32,174 nt of DNA from an uncultured Clostridia bacterium (lineage in GTDB: Bacteria > Bacillota > Clostridia > UBA1381). Location of the stretch: the NCBI GenBank assembly GCA_904420525.1, contig CAJFVT010000131.1, positions 1-32,174 of the forward strand. Reading direction: 5' to 3'. The translations under genes and the position numbers were made by a program. The notes under the pieces are model-generated. The model was not told the origin of the DNA. It made no database searches and was given only the letters and a program-made list of their open reading frames with translations. Positions 19,308-27,854 of the stretch are shown in pieces (the first letter of the stretch is position 1; each line of letters starts with the position of its first letter).

Positions 19308-19541
19308 TTATCTCAGCTGGGATATATATCTGCCCCATTCATTTTGGGGTATACCTGACATTGAAAGTGCTCCCTCTGCAGTGAGGTCATTCGTTGTCAT
19401 GAGGCTTTTTAATATATTGATCATACCTTGCTGCATCCCCTGCTGCATTCCCTGCTGCATTCCTTCTTCTTTTGCCTCTTTTTCCTTTTCGGCAAATGCC
19501 GCTTCGAGGATCTGTTCTTCATTAAATAATGTATCCATCAT
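19308..19541 (-). CDS. Predicted internally translated RpnS-type antitoxin (C-terminal part of the Rpn gene)
   Basis: Inside the Rpn gene and in frame, AAGGAGGT (19549-19556) stands exactly 7 nt before ATGATG (19536-19541). This is a better ribosome binding site than that of the full-length protein. It would give a 77-residue product beginning MMDTLFNEEQILEAAFAEKE, containing the acidic coiled helix, the GMQQ repeats and the ISQLR tail, but none of the nuclease core. Published work on E. coli Rpn systems shows that such small C-terminal proteins are made separately and inhibit the full-length toxin through a helix carrying four-residue repeats. The sequence match to that layout is direct; the function here is inference. 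Confidence 0.7.
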   Translation of the reverse strand: MMDTLFNEEQILEAAFAEKEKEAKEEGMQQGMQQGMQQGMINILKSLMTTNDLTAEGALSMSGIPQNEWGRYISQLR

Positions 19542-20183
19542 ATCTATGACCTCCTTCTCTCTCGACTGCATGAATTCCCTCAGTACGTTATCTGCGATAC
19601 AGCGCTTTACGGTTTCAACCACTGCTTCCTTTGATCTCCCATATGCCTTTATCTGCTCATCACATATCTTTGTAAAAGTGATATACTGATCCAATATATC
19701 ACCCTCAGCGCTTCCGCTTACTACTTTTACCTTTACATCCATCACCGATGCATCACCGCTGAAAAAAGCATCGGCAAGCGATATATATTCATCTTTATGT
19801 TTTTCCTTTCCGGTATATATGACATAGAATTCCGGCTTTGGTATCTTTACTTTTTTACCGTATACATTTACCTTGTTTTCTGAAAACATCTCCTGCAGCG
19901 TCTTGAAATAGTACATCGGACACCTAACAGCCATGTTTTCCGTCCATGTGCTTTGAGCTTCTATAAGGAACAAAAGCTTGTTTCCTACCATAAAACCCAG
20001 ATCATTATACAAGTCATCGACCAAAATGTTCTGCAGTGTCACTATCGTTATACTTTCTAATTCCTCTTCCGTTACATTCGGTTCAAGAACTCTGCATAAT
20101 TCCTTTAAATATTTTTTGTCACCAAAAAGCGCTGTAAACACGCTGTCCTTGACCTTTCTTTTTATCACTGCTTCTGTATTCAT
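19308..20183 (-). CDS. Rpn-family (PD-(D/E)XK) nuclease, full-length RpnL-type toxin/defence protein
   Basis: A 291-residue protein of the Rpn / 'PD-(D/E)XK nuclease family transposase' group. Despite the 'transposase' label used for this family, it has no inverted repeats and is not part of an insertion element. The nuclease core is visible: the start INTEAVIKRKVKDSVF-like segment, an Asp-rich DDLYNDLGF (Asp56/57/61), and LLFLIEAQST with Glu75 and Gln77, the E-x-Q form of the catalytic motif. The C-terminal part has three GMQQ repeats (241-252). In E. coli, Rpn proteins are toxic DNases restrained by a separately translated C-terminal fragment and can block phage; the internal start at 19541 fits that. 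I start at ATG 20183 (AAAGGGA 10 nt upstream) rather than a GTG at 20192. A promoter sits at 20206-20234. Confidence 0.88.
   Translation of the reverse strand: MNTEAVIKRKVKDSVFTALFGDKKYLKELCRVLEPNVTEEELESITIVTLQNILVDDLYNDLGFMVGNKLLFLIEAQSTWTENMAVRCPMYYFKTLQEMFSENKVNVYGKKVKIPKPEFYVIYTGKEKHKDEYISLADAFFSGDASVMDVKVKVVSGSAEGDILDQYITFTKICDEQIKAYGRSKEAVVETVKRCIADNVLREFMQSREKEVIDMMDTLFNEEQILEAAFAEKEKEAKEEGMQQGMQQGMQQGMINILKSLMTTNDLTAEGALSMSGIPQNEWGRYISQLR
19428..19463 (-). repeat. 12-bp tandem repeat encoding GMQQ x3
   Basis: Three 12-bp units (reading GGx ATG CAG CAG, the last with CAA) encode GMQQGMQQGMQQ, followed by another GM. The unit length keeps frame, so copy number can change without breaking the gene. 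The repeat lies in the predicted RpnS dimerisation helix. Confidence 0.9.
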
Positions 20184-20205
20184 TCTGATCACGTCCCTTT
20201 ATATA

Positions 20206-21719: not shown

Positions 21720-21748
21720 TTGTAATTTCCTCCGATATGTGCTATACT
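21720..21748 (+). promoter_or_regulatory. Promoter of the glutamate-cysteine ligase gene pair
   Basis: TTGTAA (21720-21725), 17-nt spacer ending TGC, TATACT (21743-21748), so an extended -10. The start near 21755 lies downstream of an earlier in-frame ATG (21707), which supports the TTG at 21794 as the real start of translation. Confidence 0.7.
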
Positions 21749-21793
21749 AGACCAATAACTATACTTACTCCGATCAGGCATGGAGGTGGAGCT

Positions 21794-22969
21794 TTGACAA
21801 ATACAGAACGCATCGCCGAATACATTGCCGGAGGCTGCACAGGCGAAAACCGGCTCGGTGTTGAGATAGAACATTTTGTACTGAGGCGTGACAGGACGCA
21901 GGTCACTTATAACAGCGGTATACAGGATATACTGAATAAGCTTTCCGAATATTATACAGAAAAAGAATACAGCTGCGGCGAGCTGATAGCTCTTTACAAC
22001 AACGAGGCGTCAATAACCATAGAGCCTGCGGGTCAGCTGGAGATAAGCATAAAGCCGTGCCGGAGCATCGGCGAGATAGACGCGATATACAAAAAGTTTA
22101 TAAGGCGAACTGAACAGGCTCTTTCAGAATACGGCTTTGAGCTTGCTAATTTCGGCTATACTCCGCATTCAAAGGCTGAGGAGCTGGAGCTCATACCTAA
22201 AGAGCGCTATGCTTTTATGGACAGATATTTCCGAAGCACCGGCACGAACGGTATAAATATGATGCGTGCGACAGCCTCAACACAGGTCTCGGTCGATTTT
22301 GCCGATGAGGCAGACTGTGTGAGAAAGCTGCGCACAGCAAGCCTGCTGGCTCCGGTATTCGCGCTCATCACCGACAATTCTCCGTTCTTCGAGGGAATAC
22401 GGTGCAACGGCAGGATGCTCCGGACAAGGATATGGCAGAACGTGGACTACGACCGCTGCGGAACTATACCGTGCCTTTTTGACAAGGATTTCGGCTTTTT
22501 AAAATATGCGGAATATATATATAACTCTCCAGCTATACTCATAATGGCCGAAAACGGCGCTGTATATACCGGACCTAAAACCGCTGCGGAAATATACGGA
22601 GAACATGAGCTTACAACTCAGGAAATAGAGCATCTTCTGTCCATGTTCTTCCCTGATGTACGGCTCAAAAAATATATAGAGATACGCCCTGCCGACTCGC
22701 TTCCGGATCAGCTTGCAATGGGATATGCGGCACTGATAAAATCTTTATTTGTAAAAAATGCTCTGCCAGATATATGCGCAGCCGAGAACGCTGACATAGA
22801 AAACGCAAAAAATGAGCTTATAGAAAAGGGCTATAACGGAGTTGTATACGGCAGGCCTGTAAGAGATATTATCGGCGATATGTTTAAAAACGCCTTATCT
22901 GTACTCAGCAGCGCCGAGACCGGTTATCTCACTCCGCTCATTGAACGGGTGCAGGCGGCCGAAGCCTGA
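21794..22969 (+). CDS. Glutamate-cysteine ligase family 2 (GCS2) protein
   Basis: 391 residues from a TTG start with GGAGG 7 nt upstream; the upstream frame to 21707 would begin before the promoter. GCS2 enzymes use ATP to join glutamate gamma-carboxyl to cysteine or another amine, the first step of glutathione-type thiol synthesis. Visible family features are GVEIEHFVL near residue 22 (metal-binding Glu residues), ATASTQVSVDF at about 156-166, and RTRIWQNVDYDRCG at about 207-220 (ATP/substrate Arg residues). The next gene, 21 nt on, encodes an ATP-grasp ligase, so the two should act in sequence. Cysteine as acceptor is the family default and not shown by the sequence. The canonical Firmicutes fused GshAB is a different architecture. 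Confidence 0.88.
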   Translation: MTNTERIAEYIAGGCTGENRLGVEIEHFVLRRDRTQVTYNSGIQDILNKLSEYYTEKEYSCGELIALYNNEASITIEPAGQLEISIKPCRSIGEIDAIYKKFIRRTEQALSEYGFELANFGYTPHSKAEELELIPKERYAFMDRYFRSTGTNGINMMRATASTQVSVDFADEADCVRKLRTASLLAPVFALITDNSPFFEGIRCNGRMLRTRIWQNVDYDRCGTIPCLFDKDFGFLKYAEYIYNSPAILIMAENGAVYTGPKTAAEIYGEHELTTQEIEHLLSMFFPDVRLKKYIEIRPADSLPDQLAMGYAALIKSLFVKNALPDICAAENADIENAKNELIEKGYNGVVYGRPVRDIIGDMFKNALSVLSSAETGYLTPLIERVQAAEA

Positions 22970-22990
22970 CTCCTCAGGAAAGGGAATATT

Positions 22991-24313
22991 ATGAACTATC
23001 AACAGGAATATAAAAGATTAATAACAGATAATTTTGAGGAATGCCGAAGCGATGCCGCGTCAATGCGCCGGAGGATAGAGGACTCCTCCGCGCATTACCA
23101 CGGCTATACGGTCCACACTCTCTACATACCCAAAATGTACAGTCCGGACGACCTTACACAGCTTGAAGCTGCAGCCGTTACAACCCACAGCATCCTCTGC
23201 AAGGTCATAGAGGAATATCTGAAAAACGCCGACTACCGCGCTCTTTTCGGGTTTGACAAGCGGCTTGAGGAGCTTATCCTACACAAGCCTATGCATTCAT
23301 GCACACTGCCGATAGCAAGGATAGATATTTTCTATGACCCGGAAACAGGCGGCTTTAAATTCTGTGAATTCAATACTGACGGCTCCAGCGGCATGAACGA
23401 GGACCGCGAGCTCAACAACGCGTTTGCCGGCTCCGTGACCTTTCAGAGGTTCACGCAAAAGCACAGCGTCCGCCGCTTTGAGCTTTTCGATTCATGGGTG
23501 GAGGAATTTATAAAAATATATAAGACATCGCCGAACGCAAAGGATAAACCTTATGTAGCTATTGCTGACTTTATGTCTAGCGCGTCCAATGAGGAATTTG
23601 AGGAATTCCGGCGCGCATTCGGACGCGCCGGGATCGAATGCGAGATCTGTGATATATACAAGCTCCGACGTGAAGACGGAGGTCTTGTATCGCCCTCCGG
23701 AAATAGGATAGACGCCGTATACCGCCGCGCAGTAACATGCGATATCATGGAAAACTACGAAAAGGTAAAGCCGTTCATAAACGCATACTTAAATGATGAA
23801 GTTGTGCTTATAGGAGACTTCCGCACACAGATCGCTCACAACAAGCTGATTTTTAAGATACTCGGCGATGATATGACCCGCTCATTTCTCACCGATAAGG
23901 AAAACGCGTTCATAAGCGAGCACATCCCCGAAACACACATTCTCACCCACGACAACATCCACCGCTTTAACGTCATAGAGGACCGGCTGAACTGGATAGT
24001 AAAGCCGATGGACTCCTATGCGTCAAAGGGAGTTCTTGCCGGGATAGAAGCAAAGGATACCGAGGAATGGCTGCACTTCCTTTCAAAGCACATGGACACA
24101 GGCTACCTCCTGCAGAGATATATCACCCCGTATGAGACCGAGAATATCGACCTTGTATGGGATCAAAAAGCTGAGTTCCGCGGCTTTGCAAATATAACCG
24201 GGCTTTTCGTCTACAGAGGCAAGCTCCGCGGCATTTACTCGCGCATAGCAAAAACAGGTGTTATCTCCACCCAGTACAGCGAAATGACTCTTCCAACTAT
24301 GATAGTTGACTAA
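22991..24313 (+). CDS. Glutathionylspermidine synthase-type ATP-grasp ligase
   Basis: 440 residues of the GSP_synth ATP-grasp family, which includes the synthetase half of E. coli glutathionylspermidine synthase and the uncharacterised YgiC/YjfC proteins. FCEFNTDGSSGMNEDRELNN at about 124-143 is the family signature, with acidic metal ligands; WIVKPMDSYASKG at about 335-347 carries the ATP-binding Lys, and YLLQRYI with a following Glu-rich strand completes the grasp fold. It has no amidase domain. Coupled to the GCS2 gene (AAAGGGA 5 nt before ATG), it probably extends a gamma-glutamyl dipeptide, perhaps with glycine, another amino acid or a polyamine; the acceptor cannot be read from sequence. 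A terminator follows. Confidence 0.85.
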   Translation: MNYQQEYKRLITDNFEECRSDAASMRRRIEDSSAHYHGYTVHTLYIPKMYSPDDLTQLEAAAVTTHSILCKVIEEYLKNADYRALFGFDKRLEELILHKPMHSCTLPIARIDIFYDPETGGFKFCEFNTDGSSGMNEDRELNNAFAGSVTFQRFTQKHSVRRFELFDSWVEEFIKIYKTSPNAKDKPYVAIADFMSSASNEEFEEFRRAFGRAGIECEICDIYKLRREDGGLVSPSGNRIDAVYRRAVTCDIMENYEKVKPFINAYLNDEVVLIGDFRTQIAHNKLIFKILGDDMTRSFLTDKENAFISEHIPETHILTHDNIHRFNVIEDRLNWIVKPMDSYASKGVLAGIEAKDTEEWLHFLSKHMDTGYLLQRYITPYETENIDLVWDQKAEFRGFANITGLFVYRGKLRGIYSRIAKTGVISTQYSEMTLPTMIVD

Positions 24314-24321
24314 AGCAAAAC

Positions 24322-24365
24322 AACGGCAGCACAGCGCCCTGCGCTCCTCTGCCGTTTTGGTTTTC
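24322..24365 (+). terminator. Intrinsic terminator of the ligase gene pair
   Basis: Stem AACGGCAG / CTGCCGTT (24322-24329 / 24349-24356) with an inner AGCGC/GCGCT hairpin, followed by a T-rich tail to about 24365. It separates the ligase pair from the aldo/keto reductase. Confidence 0.75.
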
Positions 24366-24453: not shown

Positions 24454-25449
24454 ATGGCAAACATGTATAATGCGGCATCAGACAGATACGAAAAAATGCG
24501 GTATAACCGCTGCGGAAGGAGCGGACTCAAGCTGAGCGCTTTATCGCTCGGTCTTTGGCATAACTTCGGGAGCTGTGACAACTATGACAATATGGTAAGC
24601 ATGGTTACAACAGCCTTTGATCTCGGTATAACCCATTTTGACATTGCAAATAACTACGGTCCTTATCCAGGCAGCGCAGAGGAAAACTTCGGAAAGATCA
24701 TGAAGGCCGTTATGACTCCGTACCGTGATGAGCTGATAATCTCATCAAAGGCCGGCTATGGTATGTGGGACGGTCCTTACGGTGACCACGGCTCACGCAA
24801 ATATCTTATCGCCAGCTGTGATCAGAGCCTTAAGCGCACCGGGCTTGAGTATTTTGATATATTCTATCATCACCGCCCGGATCCCGAAACACCTATGGAA
24901 GAAACAGCCGCGGCTCTCGACCATATAGTCAGAAGCGGCAGAGCTCTTTATGTAGGCGTTTCAAATTACAGTCCGGAGCAAACGCTTAAAATGTCACAGA
25001 TCTTAAAAAGCATGGGTACACCGCTCGTTATACACCAGCCGCGTTACAATATGCTCGAGAGAAATATTGAAAACGGACTTCAGACCGTGCTTGAGCACGA
25101 GGGTATCGGCTCGATCTCGTTCTGTCCGCTCGCGCAGGGACTTCTCACAAACAAATATCTTCACGGCATCCCAAAAGATTCGCGCGCGACAAAGTCGGTA
25201 TTTTTGACTGAGGACAAGGTCAACAATACAGACCTTTCAAAGATCGCAGCTCTTGATGAGGTAGCCGAACGGAGGGGACAGACTCTTGCCCAGATGGCGC
25301 TCAGATGGAACCTCCGCGGCGGTAAGCTCACAAGCGTTCTTATCGGCGCATCGCGTCCGGCTCAAATAGTTGAGAATGTAAAAGCTCTCGATGCTCCTGA
25401 CCTTACCGCGGAGGAACTTACAGAGATCGATGATATTCTTGGGAGATAA
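24454..25449 (+). CDS. Aldo/keto reductase, YghZ-like (AKR14 type)
   Basis: A 331-residue NADPH-dependent aldo/keto reductase. The closest match I recognise is E. coli YghZ, which reduces L-glyceraldehyde 3-phosphate and methylglyoxal. The shared opening RYEKMRYNRCGRSGLKL, then SLGLWHNFG and NNYGPYPGSAEENFG, are typical. The catalytic tetrad is visible: Asp and Tyr in DIANNYG (about 61-67), Lys in SSKAGYG (about 89) and His in YHHRPDPETP (about 135). VLIGASRPAQI near the C-terminus binds the cofactor 2'-phosphate. AAAGGA is only 2 nt from the first ATG and 11 nt from a second ATG at 24463, so the start may be either. No clear promoter was found, but the upstream terminator implies one. It probably acts on reactive aldehydes. 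Confidence 0.9.
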   Translation: MANMYNAASDRYEKMRYNRCGRSGLKLSALSLGLWHNFGSCDNYDNMVSMVTTAFDLGITHFDIANNYGPYPGSAEENFGKIMKAVMTPYRDELIISSKAGYGMWDGPYGDHGSRKYLIASCDQSLKRTGLEYFDIFYHHRPDPETPMEETAAALDHIVRSGRALYVGVSNYSPEQTLKMSQILKSMGTPLVIHQPRYNMLERNIENGLQTVLEHEGIGSISFCPLAQGLLTNKYLHGIPKDSRATKSVFLTEDKVNNTDLSKIAALDEVAERRGQTLAQMALRWNLRGGKLTSVLIGASRPAQIVENVKALDAPDLTAEELTEIDDILGR

Positions 25450-25471
25450 GATATTTTTTTAACAATAGGTA

Positions 25472-25500
25472 TTGAAATATCGAAGCAAATATAGTATAAT
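25472..25500 (+). promoter_or_regulatory. Promoter of the two iron-type alcohol dehydrogenase genes
   Basis: TTGAAA (25472-25477), 17-nt spacer, TATAAT (25495-25500). The start near 25507 gives a leader of about 65 nt that contains the perfect palindrome at 25532-25545. Confidence 0.75.
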
Positions 25501-25531
25501 ATTATTGATAATGCTATGAAAAAAATACTTT

Positions 25532-25545
25532 GGCACAGCTGTGCC
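25532..25545 (+). promoter_or_regulatory. 14-bp perfect palindrome in the alcohol dehydrogenase leader
   Basis: GGCACAGCTGTGCC lies about 25-38 nt after the predicted transcription start and 16 nt before the ribosome binding site. It is GC rich in an AT-rich leader. It could be a repressor operator, or an RNA hairpin with stem GGCAC/GTGCC. The regulator is unknown. Confidence 0.5.
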
Positions 25546-25571
25546 GGAGAAACATACATAGGAGATATACA

Positions 25572-26714
25572 ATGAAAAGCTTTGACATTAGAACTACGAT
25601 TTATTTCGGTGACAACGCTCTTGACAGACTTCTTGAGCTGTCCTATAACAAAATACTTATCATAACTGATCCGTTTATTGAAAAAAGCGGAATGCTCTCG
25701 CTCATAACGAACAGGCTTCAGCAGGCGTTTATAGATTTCGATATTTTTTCAGATGTTGTCCCTGACCCGCCGCTTGAAAAGATCACTCACGGCGTTCAAA
25801 GGCTGCTTGAATCAAAGCCTGACTGTATAATAGCGATAGGCGGCGGCAGTGCGATCGACTCCGCTAAGTCCATACGTGAGTTCGGAATGAGAGCATCAAA
25901 AACTGATATCGCTCTCATTGCTATACCGACCACATCGGGAACTGGCTCTGAGGTGACAAGCTTCGCGGTCGTCACCGATGCTGAAAACGACATAAAATAC
26001 CCGTTGGTTTCAGATTCGATGCTGCCGACAGAAGCTATACTTGATGCAGAGCTTGTAAAAAGCGTTCCGGCCTCAGTCACGGCAGACACTGGAATGGACG
26101 TTCTGACACATGCTATTGAAGCATATGTGAGCATAAACAATAATGAATTCTCTGCGGCACTTGCAGAAAAGGCTATCGAGATATGCGGTACCTTCCTTCT
26201 CCGTTCATACCTTGATAATAATGACAGACACGCGCGCGCTAAGATGCATGTTGCGTCATGCCTTGCGGGGCTCGCTTTCAACAGTGCATCACTCGGACTC
26301 AATCATGGTATCGCACACGCTATCGGAGCCAAGTTCCATATACCTCACGGCAGAGCGAATGCGATCGTGCTTCCGTACGTTATCGAGTTCAATTCGGGAA
26401 TAAACAAGCATTCAAAGAGTCAGAAGGAGTACCCGAAATGCGTTGAAAAATACTGCAATGTTGCAAAGCTCCTGGGCGTTAACAACTTCAACGAAATAAC
26501 GACCATACGCGCGCTCGTTGGCTGGATACAGTTCATGAACAAGGAAATGAACATACCTCTTTCAATATCACAGTGCGGGATAGACAAAAGAGAATACATG
26601 AACGCTGTCGAATCCATGGCTGAAAAGGCTATTGCCGATGCCTGCACAGCGACAAATCCACGAGTTCCGTCAAAGGCAGAAGTATGCCTTATCCTTGAGC
26701 ATATGTACGATTGA
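25572..26714 (+). CDS. Iron-containing alcohol dehydrogenase, PduQ/EutG-like
   Basis: 380 residues from the ATG at 25572 (GGAG 7 nt upstream); a TTG 14 codons earlier has no ribosome binding site. Group III metal-dependent alcohol dehydrogenase: GGGSAIDSAKSIREF (about 89-103) binds NAD(P), and PTTSGTGSEVT (about 124-134) is the family signature. The Fe ligands are Asp and His in DTGMDVLTHAIEAY (about 175-188) and two His in LNHGIAHAIGAKFHIPHG (about 248-265). The opening FDIRTTIYFGDNAL and overall length resemble 1-propanol dehydrogenases of the PduQ type, which turn aldehydes into alcohols while recycling NADH. No microcompartment shell genes are nearby, so a fermentative or detoxifying role is more likely. 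It is cotranscribed with the next dehydrogenase. Confidence 0.9.
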   Translation: MKSFDIRTTIYFGDNALDRLLELSYNKILIITDPFIEKSGMLSLITNRLQQAFIDFDIFSDVVPDPPLEKITHGVQRLLESKPDCIIAIGGGSAIDSAKSIREFGMRASKTDIALIAIPTTSGTGSEVTSFAVVTDAENDIKYPLVSDSMLPTEAILDAELVKSVPASVTADTGMDVLTHAIEAYVSINNNEFSAALAEKAIEICGTFLLRSYLDNNDRHARAKMHVASCLAGLAFNSASLGLNHGIAHAIGAKFHIPHGRANAIVLPYVIEFNSGINKHSKSQKEYPKCVEKYCNVAKLLGVNNFNEITTIRALVGWIQFMNKEMNIPLSISQCGIDKREYMNAVESMAEKAIADACTATNPRVPSKAEVCLILEHMYD

Positions 26715-26747
26715 TGATAAGATATCCGAACAGAGGAGGCATCGTAA

Positions 26748-27854
26748 ATGTTTACTTATCATATGCCCACAAAAATAACAGCAGGTGAAAATGCTGTAAA
26801 AAATTCACCGGCAGAGCTTATCCTCGGTTCAAAAGCCATAATAGTCACCGGTAAAACCTCCGGCAAAAGATCCGGAGCGCTTAACGATGCTGTAAGCGTG
26901 CTTGACGAACACTCGATACCGTATATGATATATGATAAGGTGGAAAATAACCCGTCTATAGAATCCACAGCTGAGGGCGGTGCGGCAGCACGCGAATTCG
27001 GCGCTGATTTTATCATTGCTATAGGCGGAGGCTCACCGCTCGACGCGGCCAAGGCTATTGCCGTATACGCTGCAAACACGCCCGGCGATGACTTCAAGCT
27101 TTATGATATATTCACAGGCAGCTACAAAAACAAGCCGCTTCCTATGACTGCTATACCCACTACAGCCGGAACAGGCTCTGAGGTGACACCATATTCTATT
27201 CTCACACTGCACCGTGAGCAGACAAAAAAAAGCTTTTCATCACCGGAGGTGTTTTTTAAAACAGCCTTTCTGGACGGTCGTTATATCGCAGAGCTGCCTT
27301 TGCAGACCGCCCGCAATACCGCTGTAGACGCATTAAGTCACCTGATAGAGGGATTTACAAATAAAAATTCTTCTCCTTCATCAGACTATATTGCGCTTGA
27401 AGGTCTGCGCGTTCTTGGCAATAATATAAGCATACTAAAGGACGGTCGCCCTCCTGCCGAATTGTGTACTGATTTCCTATGGGCTGCCACGCTGGGCGGG
27501 ATGGTCATAGCCCAAACAGGCACTACTATAGTCCATTCAATGGGCTATCCCCTAACATATCATAAAAACATACCGCACGGCATGGCAAACGGACTGCTGC
27601 TCGGCGAATATATGCGCCGTGCAGATCTAGAGATGCCTTGGAAGACAGACCTGTATCTTGAAGCGCTCGGAATGGACTCGATCGATGAGGTCTGCGCTCT
27701 GCTTAAAGCCCTGCTCCCGTGTGACACTGTATTCACAGAAGAGGAATTGACCGAATGGACAAAAACAAGCATCAAAGCTAAAAACGTAAGGTCCTGTCCG
27801 TTTGACGTGACAAGGGAGCTTGAGATCAATATGTATAAAAAATGTCTGTTATAA
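26748..27854 (+). CDS. Second iron-containing alcohol dehydrogenase
   Basis: 368 residues of the same superfamily but a different branch from its neighbour. The nucleotide site GGGSPLDAAKAIAVY (about 91-105) and PTTAGTGSEVTPYS (about 137-150) are clear. The metal ligands appear intact: Asp and His in NTAVDALSHLIEG (about 187-199), and His in VHSMGYPLTYHKNIPHG (about 264-280). The substrate is unknown. GAGGAGG lies 8 nt before the ATG and the gap after the first dehydrogenase is 33 nt, so they form a bicistronic unit. A strong terminator overlaps the stop codon. Having two related enzymes with different substrate pockets may broaden the aldehyde or alcohol range. Confidence 0.9.
   Translation: MFTYHMPTKITAGENAVKNSPAELILGSKAIIVTGKTSGKRSGALNDAVSVLDEHSIPYMIYDKVENNPSIESTAEGGAAAREFGADFIIAIGGGSPLDAAKAIAVYAANTPGDDFKLYDIFTGSYKNKPLPMTAIPTTAGTGSEVTPYSILTLHREQTKKSFSSPEVFFKTAFLDGRYIAELPLQTARNTAVDALSHLIEGFTNKNSSPSSDYIALEGLRVLGNNISILKDGRPPAELCTDFLWAATLGGMVIAQTGTTIVHSMGYPLTYHKNIPHGMANGLLLGEYMRRADLEMPWKTDLYLEALGMDSIDEVCALLKALLPCDTVFTEEELTEWTKTSIKAKNVRSCPFDVTRELEINMYKKCLL

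Follow-up and report, generated by a model that had tools for sequence, protein, structure and literature searches.

The window analysed here is a stretch of 32,174 nucleotides from an uncultured anaerobic gut bacterium of the Clostridia (contig CAJFVT010000131.1). The two-gene pair that a preliminary description had placed in it is genuine, with both genes on the forward strand, at 21794-22969 (gene 1) and 22991-24313 (gene 2). Gene 1 encodes a plant-type glutamate-cysteine ligase (GCL; GCS2) of 391 aa, as judged by its match to Pfam PF04107, its family profile and its invariant residues. Mechanically, the open reading frame runs from 21707; the alignment and a ribosome-binding-site-like GGAGGTGG (21782-21789, forward strand, by direct reading of the sequence), with a TTG codon 4 nt downstream, favour a start at this TTG, position 21794. 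Gene 2 follows in the same direction after 21 bp and is preceded by another ribosome-binding-site-like element read directly from the sequence, AGGAAAGGG (22976-22984, forward strand). It encodes an ATP-grasp ligase of 440 aa, assigned by an AF2 model, VIA-align and hhalign, which we propose to be a putative gamma-glutamylcysteine:amine ligase of the superfamily of eukaryotic glutathione synthetase (GS), Gss and YgiC.

The preliminary description had credited the pair with its own promoter and terminator. The terminator is supported: an intrinsic terminator, consisting of a hairpin with a T-rich tail behind it, spans about 24316-24363 (forward strand) and closes the two-gene unit, and none of the shuffled sequences was equally stable (MFE -21.6 kcal/mol, z -4.54). 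For the promoter, a consensus scan did retrieve a promoter-like site at 21720-21748 (forward strand; TTGTAA, 17-nt spacer, TATACT, with a TG ahead of the second hexamer), but the tally of such sites across the sequence equals the shuffled expectation, so that this site remains weak. An aldo-keto reductase gene and two tandem iron alcohol dehydrogenase genes lie 3' of the pair (24454-27854). They sit past the terminator and were rejected as pathway members; the two dehydrogenases are found again next to the pair in several species close to the window's genus and adjoin it only there. On the other side, positions 19308-20192 hold an ORF of 294 aa with a QGMQQGMQQGM repeat close to its end and no Pfam match.

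Gene 1 matched Pfam GCS2 (PF04107) above cut-off (E 1.5e-34) and the plant GCL model TIGR01436 with E 6e-61, which is under the curated equivalog cut-off of that model. Its family profile matched the plant GCL structures 2gwc/6gmo over the whole length (E 4e-92), and all 22 residues invariant among 48 gene 1 homologs are the same residues in Brassica GCL. By sequence, gene 1 is thus closest to the plant-type GCL. From the family and these fully conserved residues, the GCS2 enzyme would couple the gamma-carboxyl of glutamate to cysteine in an ATP-driven first step. Alternatively, gene 1 might use no cysteine, and the pair would then make some other gamma-glutamyl peptide, such as a natural product, a tag or a storage compound. 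GCS2 is a broad family that includes non-cysteine members, gene 1 stays under the TIGR01436 cut-off and a distant gene 2 relative lies within a natural-product-like Pantoea cluster. Against this stand the 22 of 22 residues shared with plant GCL, the fact that the partner elsewhere is a GshF-type GCL, of another family and with the same reaction, and a spread over many families which argues for housekeeping chemistry. We consider a non-cysteine product very improbable.

The family of gene 2 was less accessible. Searches of the window protein against Pfam and NCBIfam gave no match, and a pairwise search of the PDB gave only a sub-threshold match, to trypanothione synthetase; naming it a glutathionylspermidine-synthase type, as done previously, therefore exceeded what plain searches give. 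It is not an ordinary PF03738 (GSP_synth) protein, since neither the protein itself nor anything else in the window's own genome matched this profile. PF03738 was nevertheless found in 23 of 52 gene 2 relatives at E up to 1 (best 7.7e-12), the window protein being unmatched. When the gene 2 family profile was compared by hhalign with an alignment of Gss, YgiC and a relative, an E value of 2.4e-14 was obtained; comparison with eukaryotic GS gave 3.2e-6. The relatedness to the Gss/YgiC family is therefore remote at the sequence level, the window protein lying under all Pfam cut-offs, and the earlier assignment is borne out by fold and family profile, not by direct database matching.

The AF2 model of gene 2, built on a 52-member alignment, reached a mean pLDDT of 95.8. 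In VIA-align comparisons, it scored highest with YgiC, YjfC and Gss (Z 31.6, 31.1 and 30.2, respectively; 358-372 residues aligned). Similar values of Z (about 29-30) were obtained over 400-423 residues with the human, yeast, potato and soybean (homo)glutathione synthetases: 29.9 for soybean homoglutathione synthetase (415 residues), 29.1 for human GS (423 residues; the human sequence used in our comparisons is identical to 2hgs) and 28.7 for yeast GS. E. coli GshB (1gsa) aligned over only 215 residues with a Z of 9.8. The predicted fold of gene 2 is thus the one common to eukaryotic GS, E. coli Gss and YgiC/YjfC.

Catalytic residues follow the same pattern. The gene 2 motif R110-x-D112 ... 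E126-x-N128-x-x-G131-x-S133 aligns with R316/D318/E330/N332/S337 of Gss, and its residues R110/D112/E126/N128/S133 with R125/D127/E144/N146/S151 of human GS, while K285 and K338 align with human K305 and K364. The motif residues and both lysines are invariant in the 52 homologs. The Gss and human GS residues aligned to the motif and the lysines have known roles in ATP/Mg and substrate binding (in part PMC5919673). Features of eukaryotic GS present in gene 2 are the catalytic R110, the Mg-binding E126 and N128, and a small residue, S133, at the second Ser position. On these alignments, the invariant D193, E202 and Y244-R245-R246 probably lie near the pocket where glutathione synthetase binds the gamma-glutamyl group; R110 and R418 are also predicted pocket residues.

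Two further regions bear on the amine that gene 2 accepts. Positions 195-201, the stretch aligned to the E391-E392 pair of Gss, are variable across the family. In the C-terminal part, the glycine-rich acceptor loop GGVAAG of the eukaryotic enzymes was sought in gene 2 and is not recognisable. The loop found there, KTGVISTQYSE (R418-IAKTGVISTQYSE), is nearer to that of YgiC/Gss, as judged by eye. Together with the better profile score to Gss/YgiC, this loop makes a non-glycine amine plausible.

One such amine is a polyamine, gene 2 then making gamma-Glu-Cys-spermidine or a similar amide, as Gss and YgiC/YjfC do on peptides. Gss/YgiC is indeed the best profile match of gene 2 and YgiC gives the top structural Z. 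YgiC and YjfC, which the preliminary description had held to be without a firm role, are peptide-spermidine ligases according to Pederick et al. 2023 as cited in PMC12568646, so that this statement is outdated. However, the variable stretch at positions 195-201 and the lack of an accompanying amidase domain both speak against a polyamine product, which we regard as quite unlikely. The other such amine is an amino acid other than glycine, for instance beta-alanine or serine, which would yield a glutathione analogue new for these bacteria. Among the closest folds is that of soybean homoglutathione synthetase (Z 29.9), whose acceptor differs from that of GS through few loop residues (PMC5919673), and the gene 2 loop differs from those of both enzymes. 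Novel thiols have also been reported from clostridia, in surveys as cited in PMC6336425. Nevertheless, no positive sign points to any particular acceptor, and in nature the usual acceptor is glycine; we judge this reading unlikely, less so than the polyamine. Glycine, with glutathione as product, is the acceptor we favour, with slightly better than even confidence.

Gene 2 was found in 36 of 70 genomes of the window's GTDB family and in 26 of 398 genomes of a phylum-wide draw. A separate collection holds 249 relatives. Since the organisms of this collection and those of the phylum draw may overlap, the two counts were kept apart and not pooled. The best 80 of the 249 relatives come from records, including many metagenome bins, under the names Clostridia, Lachnospiraceae, Roseburia, Gemmiger, [Clostridium] symbiosum, Faecalitalea and Defluviitaleaceae. 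Selenomonas ruminantium TAM6421, Gemmiger formicilis and Faecalitalea cylindroides are carriers available in culture. A distant tandem ATP-grasp protein of one phylum genome (G378, L137/L183) was rejected as a family member and excluded from the counts: this protein of 822 aa (L183:1553-4018) is composed of two ATP-grasp domains, CP_ATPgrasp_2 and GSP_synth.

The gene also occurs on a plasmid. Plasmid pSRC2 of Selenomonas ruminantium (NC_017076.1, L227) carries a GCS2 gene, a MATE transporter gene and a gene 2 homolog consecutively, the latter annotated as 'hypothetical protein'. MATE-like genes adjoin the pair or gene 2 at four other loci (L035, L060, L076 and L081). On the Pantoea agglomerans plasmid NZ_CP099733.1 (L228), a ligase of 24% identity is clustered with ectB, ThiF, TauD, GNAT, CapA and another ATP-grasp gene, an arrangement suggestive of a natural-product locus not previously described. 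No carrier of gene 2 was found among the phage records searched.

We then consider the coupling of gene 2 to a GCL. Homologs of gene 2 are spread across Bacillota and in most cases adjoin gene 1. All 17 genomes of the window's GTDB family with a plant-type GCL have gene 2 adjoining it. Across the 398 genomes of the phylum draw, the plant-type GCL was present in 26/26 genomes with gene 2 and in 10/372 others (Fisher p 6e-33, kinship ignored); these ten thus carry it in the absence of gene 2. Unfused pairs are on the same strand in 58 of 58 cases, mostly tens of bp apart, and at 8 loci the two genes are fused into one reading frame, about 830-890 aa long, which on the tree corresponds to at least 2 fusion events, in at least two lineages. 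The GCL and gene 2 distance matrices were correlated (0.82, compared to a maximum of 0.17 in 500 permutations).

Where gene 2 stands alone, another GCL is generally found. Within the window's family, an E. coli/GshF-type GCL (PF04262) was detected elsewhere in 18 of the 19 genomes with a solo gene 2, compared to 1/34 genomes lacking gene 2. The PF04262 proteins of this family are mostly about 400-470 aa long and match the 756-position GshF model only from about position 13 to about position 400, which from the alignment identifies them as the GCL half of GshF without the synthetase half. Outside the family, PF04262 was present in 16 of 22 solo gene 2 genomes, the other 6 having an unlinked plant-type GCL, and in none of 28 genomes in which a plant-type GCL is adjacent or fused. 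Among seven supported independent contrasts on the tree, PF04262 changed opposite to adjacent GCS2 in about 6 and the same way in none (median p 0.03). In one genome with gene 2 (G018, 84% complete), the search found no GCL. Some loci of the window's family display an antibiotic-biosynthesis-monooxygenase (ABM)-type gene upstream of gene 2, with GCS2 either lying between the two or missing; thus, the GCL comes and goes and gene 2 stays. The ABM and Met_gamma_lyase neighbours are confined to the window's family or part of it and were not retained as core members. The substrate can come from either of two GCL families, which argues for gamma-glutamylcysteine as the intermediate they have in common.

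Several GCL contexts were recorded beside these. Four loci of the window's family (L176, L177, L181 and L182) show an operon of a divergent GCS2-like protein of 460-474 aa, an unfused PF04262 GCL half and a GATase_4 protein resembling EgtC, and at L180 and L186 PF04262 lies beside OAH-sulfhydrylase- and cysteine-synthase-like genes. Plant-type GCS2 occurs without gene 2 at L171, L172, L174 and L175 (genomes G301, G395, G122 and G161), with an adjoining dapF-like gene in three of the four. At L169 and L170 (G406 and G291), again without gene 2, GCS2 is directly followed by a GATase_4/EgtC-like gene, perhaps forming a make-and-break gamma-glutamyl pair.

Carrier genomes were also searched for other glutathione synthetases. 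Fused GshF was over the NF002688 cut-off in none of 72. GshB (PF02955) exceeded its cut-off in 11 of the 72, mostly weakly and in frames of cyanophycin-synthetase or RimK size, the best score being 59.7 bits in a 297-aa frame. There is thus no convincing GshB across these genomes as far as profile matches indicate, and those 11 might still possess a GshB-like enzyme. The window's genome gave no PF02955 match; its assembly is 88% complete, so that absence there is not proof. Conversely, PF04262 frames of fused GshF size occur in 7 genomes of the phylum, none of which has gene 2, and in G424, another genome lacking gene 2, GshF is split and has a synthetase of its own, of PF18419/RimK type, next to it. 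Unfused PF04262 without gene 2 was seen in G363 and G037. Two phylum genomes (G125 and G164) contain several frames of 879-958 aa, of cyanophycin-synthetase size, that match the synthetase half of the GshF model.

Taken together, the earlier proposal of a single pathway in which a Gss-type ATP-grasp enzyme takes the place of glutathione synthetase is well supported: the two genes are adjacent or fused, their trees are congruent, the GCL partner is exchanged, and the genomes searched show no GshF and no convincing GshB. The two genes would form a two-step biosynthetic operon. Gamma-glutamylcysteine would be supplied from glutamate and cysteine by either kind of GCL. Gene 2 would then phosphorylate the cysteine carboxyl of gamma-glutamylcysteine with ATP and join an amine to it, most likely glycine, to give glutathione. 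That the second step acts on gamma-glutamylcysteine at all is, in our view, very likely, and the pair very probably makes a glutathione-like molecule. With glycine as acceptor, gene 2 would be a glutathione synthetase of the eukaryotic/Gss class in Bacillota, orthologous to neither GshB nor the synthetase domain of GshF. A broader possibility, which we hold to be rather doubtful, is a widespread pathway of anaerobic Bacillota in which the gene 2 family converts gamma-glutamylcysteine to a low-molecular-weight thiol other than glutathione, by forming an amide with a polyamine or with an amino acid that is not glycine. If true, it might explain unidentified thiols reported from clostridia.

The usual description of the strict anaerobes among the Clostridia is that they lack glutathione (PMC6336425). 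The surveys cited there report that GSH is absent and novel thiols are present in some clostridia, which are not organisms known to carry the pair. In many bacteria that are considered to have no glutathione, gene 2 seems to stand in for the usual glutathione synthetase. Should the pair make glutathione, or an analogue of it, a thiol pathway would have escaped notice in many gut and environmental Bacillota, covering relatives of Roseburia, Gemmiger, [Clostridium] symbiosum, Faecalitalea and Selenomonas, since gene 2 has no family model and carries the annotation 'hypothetical protein'. It would represent another solution for the second step of glutathione synthesis. GCS2/ATP-grasp neighbourhoods were reportedly described by comparative genomics by Iyer et al. 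in 2009. Our literature search on the gene pair, on glutathione in the carrier genera and on Selenomonas thiols, which left subscription journals mostly outside, retrieved nothing on point. The pair is conserved and apparently unrecognised, a two-enzyme pathway probably of the glutathione type whose novelty lies in the second enzyme.

Among known systems, the GSP_synth proteins E. coli Gss and YgiC/YjfC share with gene 2 the fold, the best profile match and a similar C-terminal segment. Gss differs in having an amidase domain, none of which accompanies gene 2, and in its E391/E392 pair, the counterpart of which is not conserved in the gene 2 family. Since gene 2 is coupled to a GCL, its substrate should moreover be the dipeptide, in contrast to Gss, and not glutathione. 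Eukaryotic GS and homoglutathione synthetase (human 2hgs, yeast 1m0w, soybean 3kal) have in common with gene 2 the whole-length fold, aligned over 407-423 residues, the ATP lysines, the R-x-D/E-x-N motif and, as proposed here, gamma-Glu-Cys as substrate; the bacterial protein differs by an identity of about 14% and by the lack of a recognisable GGVAAG acceptor loop. The superfamily fold is also shared by the Cp1B ligase of fungal E-64 biosynthesis (9cjn, Z 26.7). Cp1B is a stand-alone amide ligase which accepts amino acids and acts on trans-epoxysuccinate (PMC12568646); unlike gene 2, it has no GCL partner. With regard to the bacterial GshA-GshB pathway and to the plant and alphaproteobacterial GCL combined with GshB, gene 1 shares the plant/alphaproteobacterial GCL type, whereas GshB is not of the class of gene 2. 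Finally, bifunctional GshF (GshAB) of streptococci, Listeria and others joins a GCL to a synthetase in a natural two-step fusion that follows the same logic as gene 1 and gene 2, and its GCL half serves as the alternative partner of gene 2. GshF combines an E. coli-type GCL with a PF18419/RimK-type ATP-grasp, whereas the window pair combines a plant-type GCL with a Gss-type ATP-grasp.
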